Both the position numbers and the translations under genes were made by a program. Positions 16,951 through 28,819 of a stretch of DNA of 64,000 nt are shown piece after piece. Each line of letters begins with the position of its first letter. Within the stretch, counting starts at the first letter, position 1. The notes under the pieces were generated by a model that saw nothing but the letters and a program-made list of their open reading frames with translations, did no database searches and had not been told where the DNA came from. Source of the stretch: Verrucomicrobiia bacterium. Lineage in GTDB: Bacteria; Verrucomicrobiota; Verrucomicrobiia; Verrucomicrobiales; Akkermansiaceae. The DNA lies in the NCBI GenBank assembly GCA_030431475.1, contig JAUIJD010000021.1:1-64000 (forward strand), in the 5' to 3' direction.

Positions 16951-17187
16951 CCTGAGATGATCCGACAGCGGATAGAGCCGGGAGTTGGTGGCCTGCATGC
17001 TGCGTGCCAGCTCGTCGTAGGGATCGTATTTCAAATCCACCACCCTCTTGTTGCTCGACTGGCCTTTGGTCTTCAGCGGGCCGTCGTCGATATAGCGAAA
17101 CCAGTGCCAGCCGACGGCGTTGCGGTTCCGCAGCCGGCGGATCGTGAAGTTTTCATAGAAGCTGCCGCGGTCCCGCTGGGTGGGCAC
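16942..17187 (-). CDS. Small protein, or displaced C-terminus of the ParB-like protein
   Basis: Read from a GTG at 17187, this gives 81 residues (MPTQRDRGSFYENF...LYPLSDHLRGE) with charged and aromatic content unlike non-coding frames. AAGGGGG lies 8 bases before the GTG and could be its ribosome binding site. The reading frame overlaps the end of the ParB-like gene by 35 bp. That ParB gene ends in an unnatural-looking tail just after a run of five G (minus strand, 17197-17201). A single frameshift there would join both frames into one protein of about 255 residues. No family recognised. Confidence 0.5.
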   Translation of the reverse strand: MPTQRDRGSFYENFTIRRLRNRNAVGWHWFRYIDDGPLKTKGQSSNKRVVDLKYDPYDELARSMQATNSRLYPLSDHLRGE

Positions 17188-17713
17188 GGTGAAGAGCCCC
17201 CTTGGTGTTGTCGAGCTCCCTGTCGTGGCGGTCGTCGTCTTCGTCATCCGAGTCGTCGTCCGGGTTGAGGAGCGCATCGAGGTCGGCTGGCTCGAAACCG
17301 GCGAGGATCGTGTCGAAGTCCGCCGCCTTCCACTCACCGGCGATCTTCTCCAGCTCGTTGAGGTCGACTGTCGAAAGTTCGGCCAGGCGGTTGTCGGCGA
17401 CGAGGACCGCCAGCTCGTCGTTGTCGTCGGTGAAATCCTGGAAGTCGACGGGCACGACCTCGACACCGAGGTGCTTCGCAGCCATCAGCCGGCCGTGTCC
17501 GGAAACGATCAGACCGCTGCGATTCGAGACGGTGATCGTCTGCCGCCACCCGAAGTAGCGGATGTTCTTGGCGAGCAGCTCGACCTGCCGCTGCGGGTGG
17601 GTGTTCGGGTTGCGCGGGTTGGGCTTCAACTCGGCCACCGGCACGAGCTGATCGAAACTGCACCAGACCTCGATGCCGTTGGCGAGGGTGCGGGCTTTTG
17701 CGGGATCGGCCAT
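17153..17713 (-). CDS. ParB/Srx-fold nuclease-like protein
   Basis: 186 residues from the ATG at 17713; a TTG seven codons earlier is also possible. Residues about 20-110 match the ParB-like domain found in phage and plasmid proteins: the VAELKPNPRNPNTHP start, then LIVSGHGRLMAAKHLG (the G-H-G-R core) and VADNRLAELS. An acidic stretch (PDDDSDDEDDD) follows. Such domains often act as DNA-binding nucleases or accompany methyltransferases in mobile elements. It belongs to the minus-strand operon of small genes. The C-terminal tail may be frameshifted (see the overlapping entry). The exact role is not known. Confidence 0.75.
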   Translation of the reverse strand: MADPAKARTLANGIEVWCSFDQLVPVAELKPNPRNPNTHPQRQVELLAKNIRYFGWRQTITVSNRSGLIVSGHGRLMAAKHLGVEVVPVDFQDFTDDNDELAVLVADNRLAELSTVDLNELEKIAGEWKAADFDTILAGFEPADLDALLNPDDDSDDEDDDRHDRELDNTKGALHRAHPAGPRQLL

Positions 17714-17730
17714 CGCCACGGTCGCCGCTG

Positions 17731-17964
17731 TCAACGGTGACCATCATCGGGTGTCTCCGGTGCCGGGCCAGCGGAGGCATTGGCATGGACGGTGCCGGCA
17801 TGGACCGGATCGGTAGGATATTGGACATCCTGAATCAGGTTGGCGACGGCCACGGAGCCGCGACGGTAGACGGTGACGGCGAGCAATTCGCCGTCGACCA
17901 TCACCGCCCAGTAGCGCGAGGCGTAGCCGTCAGGTTTTCGGTAGCGGGTGACTTCCACCTTCAT
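17731..17964 (-). CDS. Small hypothetical protein
   Basis: 77 residues, MKVEVTRYRKPDGYASRYWAVMVDGELLAVTVYRRG at the N-terminus and a Pro/Ala-rich tail. It looks like a short beta-rich protein of phage or plasmid type. The start shares one base with the stop of the upstream gene (TGATG), so translation is probably coupled. No family recognised. Confidence 0.6.
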   Translation of the reverse strand: MKVEVTRYRKPDGYASRYWAVMVDGELLAVTVYRRGSVAVANLIQDVQYPTDPVHAGTVHANASAGPAPETPDDGHR

Positions 17965-21007: not shown

Positions 21008-24000
21008 TCACTTCTCCGCCCACGACTTCCCGATGCTGGCCTCGACCTCGATGGGGATCTCGGGGAAGAGGTCGGACATCGCCTCGGTCATGGTGTCGAT
21101 CATGAGCGTGCGGATGGCTTCGGCATCCTGCTCGGGGCACTCGACGACCAGTTCGTCATGCACGGTGGAGACGATGCGCGCGTCTTCGGGCAGGCGTTCA
21201 CTGAGCAGGACGATGGCGTATTTGATGCCGTCAGCGGTGCTGCCCTGGATCGGCGTGTTGACCAGGGCGGTGAAGCAGTCCCAGTTGCTGGCATCGCGGG
21301 GGATCAGGCGCCGTCGACCGATGCAGGTCTTCACCCATTCCGGACACTGGTCAACGTGCTGCCACGCCTTCCCATGCCAAACCTTGAGGGCCGGGTAGGT
21401 CTTGAAGAACTTCAGGCGGAAGCGGTGGGCTTCATCGACGCTCATGTCGACGCCGTAGCTGTTACGGGCGTAGCGTGCTAGGCCTTCGTCGCCCTGACCG
21501 TAGAGGTTGCCGAAGTTGATTGCCTTGGCCATCTGGCGCTGATCCTTCGTGACTTCGGCCATGTCGATTTCCTGCATGGCGGCCGCGGTGAGGGCGTGGA
21601 GGTCGGTGCCGTCCTTGTAGGCCTGGATCATCTTCGGTTCGTTGGCAATCGCCGCCGCGGCCCGGAGCTCGATCTGGGAATAGTCGGCGACCACCAGCCT
21701 GCGTCCCGGACCGGCGACGAACGCCTCCCGGAGGTCGCCACGGCCGATGTTCTGGAGGTTCGGGTTCTTGGACGAGAAACGCCCGGTCGCCGTGCCGGTC
21801 GGCTCGAACCGCCCGTGGATACGTCCGTCGGCGGCGACGTGCTTGATGAGGGCTTCTGCCTGTTCGACCCGTTTCTTGGCGGTGCGGTGACGCAATAGGA
21901 GCGGGACGAGTGGGTTTTCTTCCACCCGCTTCAGGTCCTCGGCCCGGGTCGACTTGAGCTTCAATCCCGCCTCCTGAAGCGCCTTGAGCAGCTTGAGCGG
22001 ACTGGCGAGGTTGAGCGAGGGCGCACCCAGCGCGGCACGGAGGTCGTCGGCAGCCTGTTCCGCGATGACGCTCTGCTCGGTGACGATGACCTCCAGCTTG
22101 CCGCGATCCACCCCGATGCCGGCGGCCTCCATGTCGACCACGCACGGGAGCAGCTGCCGTTCGAGCATCCAGACCTCGTCGAGGCCGCTGATCTCGATCT
22201 CGTGCTCCAGCGTGCCGGCGAGATCATGGAGGTGGGCGACATCACGGCTGGCGTAGGCGAATTGCTCGGTGGAAAGCATCATGGCGCCCCAGTCCGAGTG
22301 GCCGAGGTCCTTTCCGGGCTCGATCTGAAGATGGCGCCACAGGCAGTCGTTGAGCTTGTGGCCCCGTTTCAGACCGGCGGTGAGCAGCCGCGAGGCGGTC
22401 ATCGTGCATACGACCTTCCGGGGATTCACGCCGCATTTCACGCGCAGCCACAGCAGGTCGAACTTGGCGTTGTGGGCAGCGATCTCGGCACCCTCCAGCA
22501 CTGTCTTCAGCGGACCGAGCTCATAGCCGAGCGTCTTCAGGTCGAGCATCCAGACCGGTCCCCGGTGGCCGGCGACGGTGAGCAGGCGGATGTCACCGCG
22601 GAACGGATCGAGGGCCCCTCCCTTCTTCGGACCGTAGGTTTCGAGGTCGAGGGCGATCCGGTGCTCACCGGCCAACGCTTTGGCAACCCGCTCCAAGTCC
22701 TTGAGATCGGTGCAGAAGATCGACTCGCGCGGCGGGTGGGGAGGTTGGGGCGATCGGTGATGTGCGTCTATGCTCTCTCTATGTACTGTACTCTTTTCAC
22801 ACCACTCACTCTTCTCTTCGGAAGGCTCGGAAACCTTTTGCAGGGTATGAACCTCCCCAACATCCCCAACCTCCCCACGGAGGAGGTGATCGAGGTCGAT
22901 GGGATTGGTGGGTGCCGGTTGGGTGAACATGACCCGCTGCCGCTCGCTCTTGGCATTGTCCTCGATGAGCAGCTGGATCCCTTCGAGGTGGCGTCCGCGA
23001 AACTGCCGTAGCGCCTTGCCGATCCGGACCTTCGCCGAGCGGGAGCTGAGGTCGCCGTCCTGGGCGAAGAACGTGAGCTCGTCGCAGTCGGTGGCCGCCT
23101 CGAGGAGCTCGAAAAGCCGGGATTTCTCGATCCAGGCGTCCGGGTGGTTGTCGAAGCCGATCCGGAAGACCGCCCGCATGGCCCGCTCCTGGCGGTCGCC
23201 GCCGAGGTCCTCGACGTGCTCGTGGGGCAGGCACGGGTCGGGCAGCCCGCAGCTCGTCATGATCCCGCCGACGACCCGCGACCACTCCGGGAAGGAATTG
23301 AACGGGGTCGGTCCCGGCGGGCACCCTTGGTTGATCCAGTGCTGGACGAGTGCGGACACCGCGCCGAGGAGCAGCGGGCGGTTCTCCAGCACCCAGCCGT
23401 GGAGGTCGGGGCGGGTGAAACTGCGGCCGTTCGGGTTCTCGTCGTAGAACTGGAGGGCGATCCGGCGGGTGCGAGGTTCGACGTCCTCGCGGAAGGTCAG
23501 CCCGACGTTGGCCGAGAGGCTGAACTCGATCTCGTTGGGCATGACGAGGTCGGCCTTCGCCTCGGTGCTACCGAGGTTGCGCGCCGCGAAGGTCTTGGAG
23601 GTGATCGCACCGATGAAGTGGGCGTCCTGGATGTGCCCCTGGCAGTTGGCGAAGTGCATGATCCGCCGGCCCGACATCATCGCGGCGGTGATCCGCTTGC
23701 GGGTTTCTTCACTGTCGCGGTCGAGAGGGGCGTCCTCGCAGGTCCGGCCCTCGTAAATGAGGTGGGTGACACCGGCGAGGTAGTCCTTCCCGGCCCGCGG
23801 ACGGTTGGCGGCAAAGTGCCACAGCGGAAACCGGGCGTCCCAGCCCATCAACCCCCGGCAATAGGGGGTGATCACCCGGGCCAGCGCGTGGGTGACGCTC
23901 TGCTCGTCCTTCCAGCAGAACTCCCCGTGGACGTCCTTGAGGATGTCGATCGCTTGGTGCAGGCCCATCGGCTTCGGCTGCGGGGCGTCCGGTGGGCAGT

Positions 24001-25447
24001 AGGAACGAAACCGGGAATCGTATCCCGGTTCGGGGAACAGGATCTCCGAACCGCGAGCGATGGGGAGCCGGATGTCGAGGATGCGGATGATTTCGGGCAG
24101 CTGGGTCCGGAACTGCGGAGCAGCCATGAGCTTGCCAGCGCACTCGCGGGACATGCTCTTCGCGTGAAATTCGAAGTCGCCGTCGTCGTCCTGCACCAGG
24201 ATCCCGGGTTCGACGAACTTCTCGGCGGCGGTGACGGCCTCGACCGGCTGGACCGGCGCGAAGACGAGCGAGCTCACTTTCTCGGTGATTTCGCGCATCT
24301 CGACCGAGCAGACATGCGCGCCCTTCCGGAACCACTGCTTCCGCGGGCCGATGGCGGCACCCATCTCGGCGGCGAATTCGGAATCCGGGCGTCCCAGGCC
24401 CGGCAGCAGGATACGCGGGCGTCCATCCATGTTCTCCTGGCCCGCCTCCCACTGGCGCATGCGTCCGCAATGGCTGGCGACCAGTCCCGGCTTCCTCTCC
24501 TCGAGCCACTCGACGAGGCTCTTGAAGTTCCGTTCGGCACAGTGGGCGTGGAGGCACTTGAAGGCGGGGAGGCGCTCGGGCGGGTTGAACACGATGGTGC
24601 CGCTGTCGGCGGACAGATCCGCAGTCCCGCTGTGGTGCTCGGCCCACGGGCAGCGCACCGACCACTTGTGATCGTCGGGATCCAGGCACTCGCCGAGCAG
24701 GTCGGCCTCCTCGAGCGCCGCGACCAGGTCCAGGCTGCGGAGATCCTCCTTCCAGTCCGCCAGCCAGCTCCGGTCCTTCTTCCGCTTCTTTCCCTCGACG
24801 CCCCCGCCACCCTTTTCACGGAACCCGAACGAGGCTTGGAGGTCAGCCCACGAGACCAGCGGGATCTCGCCGGTGACCTCCCAGTGGTATTGGTGGCCGC
24901 TGGCGTGAACCGAGGGCGAGAGCACGATCGTCAGCCCGGCGAAGAACAGCTCGGCGGTGATCGTCTCGCTGATCTCGCTCACCAGCGCCGACTTCGCCAT
25001 CAGGACGGACGCCGGCAGGTCCCGGCAGCGGAAGACCAGGTGGACTCCGCCACCGGTCCGCTCGCGCGGCACCTCAGCCAGCCCCGGCACGCCGGCCAGC
25101 CATTCCATGACCGATGCGCCCTTGTCCGCCTTCGAATCCAGGTCGACGTGGACAAAGTCGCCGTCGATGGCGCATCCAAGGTTGTATTCCTTCTTCCCGC
25201 CAAAGTAGCGGGCGATGAATTCGGGCGTGGCGTCCTCCAGCGTGTGGTGCTTCCAGCCCTTGAGGACCGCCTTCTTGCCCCGCTCCCTGCCGCGGCCCTG
25301 GGTGGGTCCGTAGAGCGGCTGGATTGCCCAGCCCAGCGCCTCGACGTAATACTGGGCCGCCTCGAAGCGGCCCAGCTCGTTGATGTGGGAGGGGATCGCG
25401 GGGCCGATCGCGGCGGCATCCTCTTTTGGTGTCGCCTCCTCGCTCAC
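21008..25447 (-). CDS. Primase - ATPase-like - exonuclease/DNA polymerase A fusion
   Basis: A 1479-residue replication protein starting at a GTG that overlaps the upstream TGA (GTGA). Residues about 20-205 are an archaeo-eukaryotic primase/prim-pol domain with VHVDLDSK (Asp102, Asp104) and TGGGVHLVF (His136). Residues about 255-315 are a zinc-binding module (C266, H271, C298, C303). Residues about 490-740 look like a helicase or ATPase, with a degenerate P-loop NRPRAGKD at 548-555. A proline-rich linker follows (about 860-920). Residues about 925-1090 are a DEDDy 3'-5' exonuclease (Asp934-Leu-Glu936, then NAKFD and YASRD). Residues about 1100-1479 are a family-A polymerase with motif A DYSQIELR (Asp1255), motif B (RQMAKAINFGNLYG) and motif C HDE (Asp1431). 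Priming, unwinding, synthesis and proofreading thus appear joined in one chain. Confidence 0.88.
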   Translation of the reverse strand: MSEEATPKEDAAAIGPAIPSHINELGRFEAAQYYVEALGWAIQPLYGPTQGRGRERGKKAVLKGWKHHTLEDATPEFIARYFGGKKEYNLGCAIDGDFVHVDLDSKADKGASVMEWLAGVPGLAEVPRERTGGGVHLVFRCRDLPASVLMAKSALVSEISETITAELFFAGLTIVLSPSVHASGHQYHWEVTGEIPLVSWADLQASFGFREKGGGGVEGKKRKKDRSWLADWKEDLRSLDLVAALEEADLLGECLDPDDHKWSVRCPWAEHHSGTADLSADSGTIVFNPPERLPAFKCLHAHCAERNFKSLVEWLEERKPGLVASHCGRMRQWEAGQENMDGRPRILLPGLGRPDSEFAAEMGAAIGPRKQWFRKGAHVCSVEMREITEKVSSLVFAPVQPVEAVTAAEKFVEPGILVQDDDGDFEFHAKSMSRECAGKLMAAPQFRTQLPEIIRILDIRLPIARGSEILFPEPGYDSRFRSYCPPDAPQPKPMGLHQAIDILKDVHGEFCWKDEQSVTHALARVITPYCRGLMGWDARFPLWHFAANRPRAGKDYLAGVTHLIYEGRTCEDAPLDRDSEETRKRITAAMMSGRRIMHFANCQGHIQDAHFIGAITSKTFAARNLGSTEAKADLVMPNEIEFSLSANVGLTFREDVEPRTRRIALQFYDENPNGRSFTRPDLHGWVLENRPLLLGAVSALVQHWINQGCPPGPTPFNSFPEWSRVVGGIMTSCGLPDPCLPHEHVEDLGGDRQERAMRAVFRIGFDNHPDAWIEKSRLFELLEAATDCDELTFFAQDGDLSSRSAKVRIGKALRQFRGRHLEGIQLLIEDNAKSERQRVMFTQPAPTNPIDLDHLLRGEVGDVGEVHTLQKVSEPSEEKSEWCEKSTVHRESIDAHHRSPQPPHPPRESIFCTDLKDLERVAKALAGEHRIALDLETYGPKKGGALDPFRGDIRLLTVAGHRGPVWMLDLKTLGYELGPLKTVLEGAEIAAHNAKFDLLWLRVKCGVNPRKVVCTMTASRLLTAGLKRGHKLNDCLWRHLQIEPGKDLGHSDWGAMMLSTEQFAYASRDVAHLHDLAGTLEHEIEISGLDEVWMLERQLLPCVVDMEAAGIGVDRGKLEVIVTEQSVIAEQAADDLRAALGAPSLNLASPLKLLKALQEAGLKLKSTRAEDLKRVEENPLVPLLLRHRTAKKRVEQAEALIKHVAADGRIHGRFEPTGTATGRFSSKNPNLQNIGRGDLREAFVAGPGRRLVVADYSQIELRAAAAIANEPKMIQAYKDGTDLHALTAAAMQEIDMAEVTKDQRQMAKAINFGNLYGQGDEGLARYARNSYGVDMSVDEAHRFRLKFFKTYPALKVWHGKAWQHVDQCPEWVKTCIGRRRLIPRDASNWDCFTALVNTPIQGSTADGIKYAIVLLSERLPEDARIVSTVHDELVVECPEQDAEAIRTLMIDTMTEAMSDLFPEIPIEVEASIGKSWAEK

Positions 25448-25689
25448 GGTTGCTCCTCCCCGGTCGTGGCTTCGTCACGGATGGCGGCACCGCCGACGGT
25501 CAGGGCGTCGAGGGCACGGTCGAGGTCGCTCTGGCGGTAGCGCAGGGCCCGGCCGATCCGGATGAACGGGATCAGCCCCTGGATGCGCCAGGTGTAGAGC
25601 TGGCGTGGCCGGATGCGGAGGTATTCGCAGGCTTCGAGGTCGGTCAAAAGCCGGTCGGCACGGCGGGCGGAATCAGGTTGCTTGGACAT
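25444..25689 (-). CDS. Helix-turn-helix excisionase-like protein
   Basis: 81 residues with an HTH_17/MerR-like DNA-binding fold: LLTDLEACEYLRIRPRQLYTWRIQGLIPFIRIGRALRYRQSDLDRAL. Such small proteins serve as excisionases or replication and copy-number regulators in integrative elements. It is translationally coupled to the replicase (GTGA overlap) and lies immediately downstream of the palindrome array. It is therefore a prime candidate to bind the array or the promoter within it (inferred). Confidence 0.8.
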   Translation of the reverse strand: MSKQPDSARRADRLLTDLEACEYLRIRPRQLYTWRIQGLIPFIRIGRALRYRQSDLDRALDALTVGGAAIRDEATTGEEQP

Positions 25690-25734
25690 GCCACCAGCCG
25701 CGTGTCAACTTGCGCGAGCTGCCGAGGGGTGGAT

Positions 25735-27081
25735 TTCATTGCGTAATGAACTTTCCGGCTGGAAATCCGTGAACGTTCACAAGTTTCCGGGGGCGGGGAA
25801 AGCTCTGCCCGCGCAGAGATTTGGGAAGAAAAGCCGCGCTTCCGTTGGCCCGGATTTGTCAGCGCGGGATGACAAATGACAGCCGATCGGCCGAGATTTT
25901 CGGCACACGCCGAGATTACTTCCCGGGTAGAGATTGTTCTGACGTAAGAACAGCCCCCCGTCGGCTGGCCATTTTTCTGCGCGCGCAGAAACTTTCCGCT
26001 CGAGCGGAAATTCTTGGCGCCCAGAAAATGTGTGATCGGTCACACAATTCGAAGTCGCTGGCCCATTTGTCCTGCCGGCAGGACAAGCTTCGCGGGGGAT
26101 CCGCGCGGCAATTGTCATGTCGGGATGACAATCTGGGGCACCATCAACTGCCTGAAATCTACTTACGTAAGTAGGTTTCAGCCGCTCGAGGGTCGCCAAA
26201 GCCTGCCGTCCGTCTGGTGGCGCCACGAGGTTCCCGTCGAGCGTAGACAACCATTTGTCCGCACGCGCAGACAATCGGCGGTTACTTCTACACGTGTAGA
26301 ACGAAAGCCCGCTGCCGTAGCGGGGCTGACGCAGGCGGGGCGCGTGAATCTTGTGCGCGCGTACAAAATGGGCTTCCCGCCTGGCAGCCAGCGAGAGGCA
26401 GAATCTTAGATCGATCTAAGGTTCTCGGCGGGGCCCGGCACCGGGAGATTTTCCCGACGACAGGAAATTTCGTTCCGGAACGAAAATGTTGATGCGCATC
26501 AACGACCGCCGGCGGCAGGAGGCGGTGGATCGAGGAGGTGGCAATTTTTTTGCGCGCGCAAAACAAGGCACCCCGGCCGAGGCGAAGGCTTCGTGGGGAA
26601 ATCGTCTTTGCGCAAAGACAAAGGGCACTGGATCTGGAACGGAGGGGGTGACTGGCCGAAGCGTGTAGACGGCTACACGTTCCGTGAGCCCGGGCACTGA
26701 GGACCGGGGCTGGAATTGTTTATTCGCATAAACAATTCGAGCTCCCCCTTCGTCGTGGCGCCACGACAATCTTCCCAGATGCGAATCCTTGCAACGCCGG
26801 CACAATCAGCCTGCTCGGATGCAGGAGATGGGCGTCGCAATTGTCTGGCCGGCAAGACAATCGGCCGCTTGTCGTTCCGGAACGACAATCCCGGAGTGGA
26901 GGCCGTCGGCGGCTTCGCGAAAGGCAAGATCTGCGGAGTGGTCGTTTAGTTGACTAAACGTCTGAAACTCCCGGGGTAGGGTGGTCGTGGGCAAATTCTC
27001 GTTGCGTAACGAGATTTCCTCCTGCCGGCAGGAGATTTTTTGGCCGGCAAGAAAAATGGGACAATCTTCGACCGATCTAAG
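25735..27081. repeat. Array of about 30 different CpG-centred short palindromes
   Basis: A 1.35-kb non-coding stretch packed with 10-26 bp dyads of differing sequence, spaced about 17-60 bp centre to centre. Thirteen are perfect over 16-20 bp: 25974-25991, 25993-26010, 26067-26086, 26159-26174, 26286-26301, 26405-26420, 26468-26485, 26488-26503, 26548-26563, 26604-26619, 26752-26767, 26869-26888 and 27019-27034. Examples are TTTCCGCTCGAGCGGAAA and TTGTCCTGCCGGCAGGACAA. Most others carry one or two mismatches, such as 25935-25952, 26011-26026, 26029-26046, 26351-26366, 26713-26738, 26840-26861 and 26998-27013. Nearly every one is centred exactly on CG (26943-26960 has TG). Arms tend to be AT-rich outside and GC-rich inside. 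The array lies between the integrase 3' end and the HTH-replicase operon. Its role is unknown. Confidence 0.93.
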
Positions 27082-27094
27082 AATCGCCTCGGCC

Positions 27095-28402
27095 TCAACC
27101 TGCCTTCCGGCGATGCGCCTCGACCGCCCGTCGGATCCGCTCCCGGATCGGCCAGGGGAGCTCGTTCGGCACCCAGCCCTCCGGCGGCGTGATCGCGAAC
27201 CACGCCTTCGCCGACTCCTCGTCGACTACCGCCCGGTAGTGGCGGAAGACCTGCTTCGGCGAGTTGCCAGCCTCCAGAGAGGTCCGAGCGACGTCCCCGG
27301 TCTCCGCAACCCGGTAGCTGATGAAGGAGTGTCTGAGCCCATTCTGACGCCATCCGCCCGGGATCCCGGCTTTCACGGCCACGTCGCCGAGCGCCCCCGA
27401 GGAATCCCGAATCGGGACGACCGGCCCCTGCTCATCACGCCACGGGGCAAGCCATGCCTTGAGGTTCTCGCTGAGCGGGACCAGCCGGCGCGCCCGGGTT
27501 TTGGCGATCCGACCGGAGATCTCGATGTGGCCCCGGTCCCACTTGATGTCCTCCCAGCGGAGCTTGCAGATCTCGGCATTGCGAATCCCGGAGAAAGCAC
27601 CGATGGCCATCAACGGCAGAATCCGCGCATGGGCGGCGAGCAGGAGCTTCTGCATTTCCTCGGGCGTGAAGATCTCGATCTCCTTCTCCGGGACCTTGAA
27701 GGTCTCGCTGAGCTCGGCCGCCGTCTTCCGGTCCGGGTCGATGTAGCCCTGCTTCTTGGCGAACGAGAACATCGTCACGATCGTCCGGCGAAGGCAGTTC
27801 TTCGAGACCGGAGCCAGCGTGGTGAGGCTGGTCAGGAACCCGTTGATGTCGGCCACCGTGATCTCGGAGATCTGTCCGGGCAGACGCTCCGTGAAGCGCT
27901 TGAGGTTCTGGCGGCAGGAATTCACGTAGGCTTGGCTGACCCCGCTCGCGGCACGGGAGGCGACGAACTCCTCCGCGACCTCGGCGGTAGTGCGAGGAGG
28001 GAAGGAGTTCTGCTGGGCCTCGGTGTGACCTTTGACCGCCTCGCACAGCGGGATCTCGCCGGCCAGCTTCCGGGCGTGGACCCATTCCTCCATCGCTACG
28101 GTCAGCGAGAGGTCGAAGCGGGCGGCGAGTTGCTCACAGTATCGGAGCAGTTCGATGTCCCTGCGGGTCACCTCGTCACCGGTGGCGATGCCGTTGGTGA
28201 GCCGAACGGTGATCTGCTGGGCGACGACCTGGGCTTCGTCCGGGCAGGAGATGCTGCGCCTCCGTCGCCGGCCGCCCTCCTTCCAGGCGAGCGTGTGTTC
28301 CGAGTATCCGTCGGCGCGGGTCATCGTGTAGATCTTCACAGCCGCGGGGCCGGTTCCGATCTGGATCACGCTGTTGCGTTTCTTCCGTTTGCGCGGGTTC
28401 AT
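27095..28402 (-). CDS. Tyrosine recombinase / integrase
   Basis: 435 residues from the ATG at 28402 (MNPRKRKKRNSVIQIG). The longer upstream frame reads through an arginine- and proline-rich intergenic stretch with strong hairpins and is rejected. A SAM-like core-binding domain (about 165-255: TTAEVAEEFVASRAASGVSQAYVNSCRQNLKRF) is followed by the catalytic domain. Active-site elements are Arg in GAFSGIRNAEICKLRW, RHS in NGLRHSFISYR, and HYRA near the C-terminus carrying the tyrosine nucleophile. It presumably integrates and excises the element reaching to about 16.9 kb. The array begins 13 bp beyond its stop codon. Confidence 0.88.
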   Translation of the reverse strand: MNPRKRKKRNSVIQIGTGPAAVKIYTMTRADGYSEHTLAWKEGGRRRRRSISCPDEAQVVAQQITVRLTNGIATGDEVTRRDIELLRYCEQLAARFDLSLTVAMEEWVHARKLAGEIPLCEAVKGHTEAQQNSFPPRTTAEVAEEFVASRAASGVSQAYVNSCRQNLKRFTERLPGQISEITVADINGFLTSLTTLAPVSKNCLRRTIVTMFSFAKKQGYIDPDRKTAAELSETFKVPEKEIEIFTPEEMQKLLLAAHARILPLMAIGAFSGIRNAEICKLRWEDIKWDRGHIEISGRIAKTRARRLVPLSENLKAWLAPWRDEQGPVVPIRDSSGALGDVAVKAGIPGGWRQNGLRHSFISYRVAETGDVARTSLEAGNSPKQVFRHYRAVVDEESAKAWFAITPPEGWVPNELPWPIRERIRRAVEAHRRKAG

Positions 28403-28819
28403 CGAACCCTTCGCCGGTGTCAACTTGTCGGAATTTTTGTCCGAAGGATTCGCCCTCGGCGGCTTCGGATTCCTGCGAGTTGCTTGCTTGGAGCGGGTTA
28501 CGGGATTGCTCCCACCCTCTCCGCCAGACCCCGCTCCCGGCTCACCCGGGAGCGGGGTCTGGCGTTTCCGGGGTGGGTGGAGAAGGCCGAGGAGCGGAGC
28601 GAGACCGGGTTTGAATGCGGCAAGCCGATCGTATCGGCGGCGTCCATCCCGGCGCGCAGCGCCGCAGACCGGCATGGCGTGAGGAGCGCAGCGACGAGGG
28701 CAATTCGGGAAGCCGTCGGTGACGGCGACCTTCATGGGCGAGCGGTGCGAGCGAAACTGGAATGGCCGGAGCGGAGCGGCGGCAATCCCACCCTCTCCGC
28801 CGAGCGCGAGACGACCAAC
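28403..28819. other. Hairpin-rich spacer upstream of the integrase, possible attachment region
   Basis: About 420 bp without a gene. CCCACCCTCTCCGCC occurs twice in direct orientation (28511-28525 and 28787-28801). With the following A, the first copy looks like the 3' end of a serine tRNA (T-stem, acceptor, CCA), a common integrase target. Three hairpins have 3-base loops: 28624-28638 (GCCGAT/ATCGGC), 28651-28663 (GGCGC/GCGCC) and 28712-28726 (GCCGTC/GACGGC). No complete tRNA gene is present. The attachment-site role is inferred. Confidence 0.45.
28523..28563. repeat. Perfect 18-bp inverted repeat with 5-base loop
   Basis: GCCAGACCCCGCTCCCGG at 28523-28540 pairs with its full complement at 28546-28563 around the loop CTCAC. 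Flanking CCACCC and GGGTGG can extend the stem with bulges. There is no T tract on either side, so a simple terminator is not evident. It lies 120 bp upstream of the integrase start. Confidence 0.7.

Follow-up and report, generated by a model that had tools for sequence, protein, structure and literature searches.

The window analyzed here, a stretch of 64,000 bp on contig C45 of our set, carries genes for a tyrosine integrase, a small HTH_17 (excisionase-like) protein, termed xis here, and a PrimPol-DNA polymerase A fusion replicase, and this combination identifies an integrative element (Table 1). The element lies in a sugar-utilization region with LacI, MFS, and GH43 genes, and a search of the window for its att repeats found neither a convincing direct repeat nor a tRNA. 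A ParB-like N-terminal domain of the DNA methyltransferase type, apparently shortened, is encoded at the element's far end (17153-17734). The TTGACA motif ahead of xis, a possible promoter element, is also found 23 to 25 bp ahead of the ATG of the HTH gene in four other aligned relatives (C106, G328, G269, and G216). Between the integrase gene and xis lies the array of palindromes that is the subject of this work.

Table 1. Features of the element and of its palindrome array in the window (hyphens between two sequences mark the dyad axis).
Feature	Position	Strand	Remark
PrimPol-DNA polymerase A fusion replicase	21008..25447	-	
xis, small HTH_17 (excisionase-like) gene	25444..25689	-	First gene downstream of the array
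TTGACA motif	25703..25708	-	19 bp ahead of the xis start
Array of ~30 distinct 20-24 bp palindromes, CG center	25731..27085	.	Palindrome search and shuffles
Unit closest to xis (C45 25742)	25731..25754	-	22/24 identical to the in-gene lmbU-type site of L213 (G328), asymmetric flanks included
Perfect 20-bp unit TTGTCCTGCCGGCAGGACAA	26067..26086	.	Half-site recurs inside lmbU-type genes of L278-L280
Unit AAATCTACTTAC-GTAAGTAGGTTT	26155..26178	.	Half-site recurs inside the lmbU-type gene of L248/L176
Unit AAATTTCGTTCC-GGAACGAAAATG	26465..26488	.	Half-site recurs inside the lmbU-type gene of L291
Perfect 20-bp unit TTGTCGTTCCGGAACGACAA	26869..26888	.	Palindrome search
Tyrosine integrase	27095..28735	-	3' end adjoins the array

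The sequence-only reading of this DNA had described about 30 distinct palindromes, 13 of them perfect over 16 to 20 bp and nearly all centered on CG, and its number and placement of these elements were correct. Within the tested interval (25690-27094, 1.4 kb), all 13 perfect even palindromes of 16 to 20 bp possessed the CG center; the remaining 62.6 kb of the window contained eight perfect palindromes of at least 14 bp, with mixed centers. Near-palindromes with an arm match of at least 7/8 numbered 26 in the interval, and 24 of these were centered on CG. The two exceptions were the element at 26943-26960, for which the TG center noted earlier was confirmed, and a GC-centered case that is an overlap artifact. 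When the interval was subjected to 1000 dinucleotide-preserving shuffles, perfect 16-mers occurred at a mean of 0.036 (maximum 1) and near-palindromes at a mean of 0.81 (maximum 8), with a CG share of 0.34 at the centers of the latter; the earlier observation was confirmed. A looser rule (6/8 matches plus T at -7 and A at +7) yielded 30 CG sites.

The consensus of the array units is (A/G)A(T/A)T-N-T-C-NNNN-CG-NNNN-G-A-N-A(T/A)T(C/T). The information content was 2.0 bits at position -1 (C), 1.4 bits at -7 (T, present in 62 of 68 half-sites), and moderate at -9 and -11, where T and A predominate within an AT-rich flank. Positions -2 to -6 were of low information and nearly free in sequence, yet they were complementary across the dyad, in keeping with the earlier proposal that the symmetry and the center are selected rather than the sequence. 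Complementarity of the stems was lowest at ±2.

Arrays of this kind were recovered from five further elements or viral contigs (C106, L150, L154, L155, and L176). The one in C106, from the same genome as the window, is smaller and comprises six sites between an integrase gene and an HTH_17 gene; the viral contig L155 has more than 30 different CG palindromes between two HTH genes; the phage contig L154 has five perfect 20-bp palindromes without an adjoining integrase; and L176 is an Akkermansia MAG. L150, L154, L155, and L176 came from pattern scans. The hosts are read here as Verrucomicrobia on the basis of named relatives such as this Akkermansia MAG. In the Verrucomicrobia-type elements, the array occupies the interval from the integrase to the xis/replication genes. 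In L150, L176, C45, and C106, it is flanked by int and by the genes that lead to the replicase, and in C45, C106, L150, L155, and L176 it directly precedes the xis-replicase region. For related integrases that lack an array, the distance from int to the HTH gene is about 50 bp, and in G269 (C150) that gap holds one single site. The suggestion that the same replicase would lead to further arrays did not hold: L034 and L035, two elements whose full-length replicases are related (44-47% identity), lack an array. The presence of an array follows the integrase-xis junction and not the replicase. In locus L079 (3794-6483 of G000:C106), two integrase genes are placed head to head with the small array after the second, which suggests neighboring elements.

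Several other repeat clusters were seen during these searches. A pattern scan of GTDB contigs returned matches that mostly were not arrays, with the array type present only in L176 and possibly in L193. Palindromic or pattern-matching repeats spaced at multiples of 42 bp occur in L193 (2900-3535, Odoribacteraceae MAG) and L182 (2125-2522, Lachnospiraceae MAG). L157 (9137-9495) contains near-identical copies of one palindrome, TTGTCGTACCGGTACGACAA; with its identical tandem repeats it was rejected as an array of the present kind and serves as a contrast case, an ordinary repeated-site cluster. A second kind of palindrome array was observed in a phage-like element from the same host family (L148, 390-1140 of G398:C53), where the units have the center GTTAAC, outer TTGT/ACAA, and a triplet at -6 to -4 that is variable but complementary, and where the unit spacing often alternates between 39 and 48 bp. 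Its neighbors encode a DUF5906 replicase, an Ant anti-repressor, and a serine recombinase.

Our first hypothesis was that the units are operators of the LacI/GalR-family sugar regulators of the host. LacI-family motifs are even palindromes of 16 to 22 nt with CG at the center of 1173 of 1251 even motifs (PMC4052901), a geometry that the array fits, and the window itself lies in a sugar-utilization region with LacI genes. The host, however, has just three LacI-family matches, and the pattern TTNTC-N4-CG-N4-GANAA occurs only eight times in its genome, seven of them within the two arrays (C45 and C106), so that such sites are essentially absent elsewhere in the host. The other arrays have no link to LacI, and the match to LmbU-type genes described below explains more. 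The LacI operator hypothesis is largely refuted, and we assign it a very low probability.

A scan for AATTGTC-N4-CG-N4-GACAATT identified eight contigs beyond the arrays, with a perfect palindrome in five and one mismatch in a sixth. Most of these single sites fall inside the coding sequences of a single family, the lmbU-type genes, where they encode V/Q-L-S-x-R-x-D-N-L. In its general form, the in-gene site encodes L-S-x-R-x-(D/E)-N, and its central CG is the CG of the invariant Arg codon. The genes with an in-gene site are carried by phages and mobile elements. For 11 homologues from protein search alone, two of which (L150 and L176) had originally entered via array patterns, 73 of 77 positions were complementary, as compared to 38.6 ± 4.3 when the halves were shuffled between genes. 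Extending the comparison to 66 homologues gave 410 of 462 complementary positions against 209 ± 9 expected. With the amino acids fixed and synonymous codons permuted, the wobble pairs of genes with at least 5/7 matches were complementary in 175 of 177 cases versus 88 ± 5, and the whole family had 186 complementary pairs versus 93 ± 5.5. Because the wobble pairs are complementary beyond synonymous-codon permutation, it is the DNA symmetry, not the peptide, that is selected; we conclude that the in-gene palindrome is under DNA-level selection. Only 17 other such palindromes were present within the surrounding 600-bp stretches for the 56 genes of the palindromic class. The in-gene palindrome is absent from several remote relatives among the protein-search homologues and from 10 of 11 lmbU genes of Streptomyces and Pseudonocardia (plasmid or antibiotic-cluster genes); the Streptomyces plasmid genes were accordingly dropped as support. 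One LmbU-type domain, in L197 (1427-2590), is fused to an MT-A70 adenine methyltransferase, and the palindrome in that gene is perfect.

All 16 aligned members of the family matched the NCBIfam model LmbU_fam_TF (NF038070), with a score of 129.7 (cut-off 125) for the member reported in detail. In an AlphaFold model of an LmbU-type protein (pLDDT 84.8), residues 43 to 137 align with the DNA-binding domains of ParB/Noc/Spo0J proteins at Z values of about 11 (11.3 to 7bnr, 11.1 to 7ol9, and 10.8 to 4umk), and complexes with parS and NBS are among the aligned structures. The family is therefore described here as LmbU-family regulators with a predicted ParB/Noc-type DNA-binding domain. The LmbU-type proteins had no match to the ParB N-terminal (CTPase) domain, and a Protein Data Bank profile search by sequence provided nothing useful. 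Differences among the sites track the recognition helix after overall protein distance is removed (partial r 0.25 versus a permutation 95% value of 0.21), in a test that ignores phylogeny, in which a second window scores equally and for which the top helix is encoded near the site in the gene.

The array units and the in-gene sites share sequence as well as symmetry. Half-sites of the arrays (-6 to -2) were found in lmbU-type genes in 54 of 89 cases, compared with 22.5 ± 3.4 (maximum 32) for a column-shuffled null, and those of C45 alone in 19 of 30 cases compared with 7.3 ± 2.0. The L176 array includes an exact 25-bp copy of the in-gene site of L176 itself, with its mismatch, and the L155 unit at 1645 matches the in-gene site of L201 at 23 of 24 positions with the asymmetric flanks kept. 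As judged from these sequence matches, the link of the array to LmbU is well supported.

The earlier proposal had allowed for selection either on structure or on a symmetric, center-specific contact. Hairpins in single-stranded DNA or RNA, acting for example in replication or transcript processing, would account for a symmetry that is maintained while the sequence varies, with diversity preventing cross-pairing of neighboring stems, and the weakest pairing at ±2 would fit a tetraloop. Against this, G-U and A-C mismatches show no strand bias (14 versus 12 in the C45 array and 10 versus 12 in the genes), the T at -7 and the AT flanks are sequence-specific, and units recur between arrays and genes. 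Since the mismatches are unbiased, the evidence favors recognition of double-stranded DNA, putatively by ParB/LmbU-type dimers. The structural half of the proposal was not sustained and hairpin selection is improbable; the contact half stands as a candidate. The occurrence of such palindromes inside lmbU-type genes of other elements, with the CG center falling in a conserved Arg codon, had not been anticipated in that proposal.

Exact and near copies raise the alternative that the array is a memory, somewhat like CRISPR spacers, with units copied singly from the lmbU-type genes of elements met earlier. The L176 copy and the near copies whose flanks are asymmetric (C45 25742 versus L213, 22/24; L155 1645 versus L201, 23/24) are consistent with such an origin, as is the finding that just one unit has coding-frame stops in both readings. 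Nevertheless, the depletion of stops is not significant (a stop in either reading occurs in 9 units versus 12 ± 2.7 expected), the matches between arrays and genes end at about ±12 bp, and no acquisition machinery was seen. Symmetry at ±12 is higher in the array flanks than in the gene flanks (0.53 versus 0.29), which is expected for optimized binding sites. We consider copied memory to be a doubtful explanation.

In Streptomyces lincolnensis, LmbU is reported to act as an HTH dimer on the CG-centered sequence CGCC-GGCG (PMC6510168, PMC10763038). Its site in the lmbA and lmbW promoters, CGCCGGCG, and the present system are alike in the protein family (NF038070), the HTH dimer, and the CG-centered palindrome, but the known LmbU uses a single motif in target promoters, whereas here many sequences are arrayed and further sites lie within the regulator genes. 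Given that 10 of 11 Streptomyces-type genes are missing the in-gene palindrome, the known and the present sites have only the protein family and the CG center in common. ParB, Noc, and KorB resemble the present case in the predicted DNA-binding fold and in CG-centered palindromes. The parS site is TGTTTCAC-GTGAAACA and NBS is TATTTCCC-GGGAAATA, and both are palindromes centered on CG. The parS, NBS, and operator clusters of those proteins repeat one sequence, in contrast to an array in which every site differs. Iterons, CRISPR, and integron attC arrays likewise consist of many short repeated units, on mobile elements or on chromosomes. Sequence is conserved among iterons and among CRISPR repeats, and a CRISPR or iteron array was rejected here for want of a conserved repeat sequence, positions -2 to -6 being nearly free; attC sites keep their structure with AAC/GTT boxes and carry cassettes, neither of which is found in the present array. 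No described counterpart of the array was found, and a search of open-access published papers yielded no account of heterogeneous palindrome arrays.

We lean toward the view that the array represents a library of LmbU-type sites of differing specificity, which senses the regulators of other elements and sets the xis/replicase operon. LmbU-type proteins would bind as dimers on the CG-centered palindromes, each variant of positions -2 to -6 would confer a different specificity, and the units may be bound by the LmbU-type proteins of related or competing elements and phages. The input is assigned to other elements because the host genome of the window (contigs C45 and C106) encodes no LmbU-type protein. 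The position upstream of the excision and replication genes would let bound regulators act on xis and the replicase, so that LmbU from a co-resident or incoming element would be sensed and the operon set, most likely switched on.

Titration of another element's regulator would, in our assessment, rank as a close second to sensing. In a decoy or incompatibility array, the sites would soak up the LmbU/ParB-like proteins of rivals and thereby derepress or destabilize them, and the proximity to xis would be incidental. More than 30 sites of differing specificity suit titration, as does the predicted ParB-like character of the LmbU-type DNA-binding domain. In L200 (91-1726), an LmbU-type gene is immediately downstream of a ParA-like ATPase gene, an arrangement resembling a partition operon, and some such proteins may thus be partition adaptors. 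This ParA adjacency was found only in L200 among the neighborhoods read, however; one copy per site makes a weak sponge, and the array adjoins the xis/rep genes in all Verrucomicrobia-type elements read. A decoy role is by itself rather unlikely. Our order of preference is sensing, then titration, then copied memory, with hairpins and LacI operators unlikely.

More generally, and only tentatively, mobile elements may sense and compete with one another through regulators that have their own site within the gene, while other elements hoard libraries of 30 and more such sites. The in-gene specificity site may diversify symmetrically through compensatory, partly synonymous changes, and accumulated libraries would let elements detect, exploit, or titrate LmbU/ParB-type regulators. 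Operator clusters are normally one sequence repeated for one protein; here there are dozens, each seemingly for another member of the family. The paired protein and site variants would constitute a natural catalogue for deciphering the code by which ParB-type domains recognize their sites, and in-gene operators become testable at scale. If the proposed binding is true, mobile elements would have a way to read or disarm one another via diversified DNA addresses.
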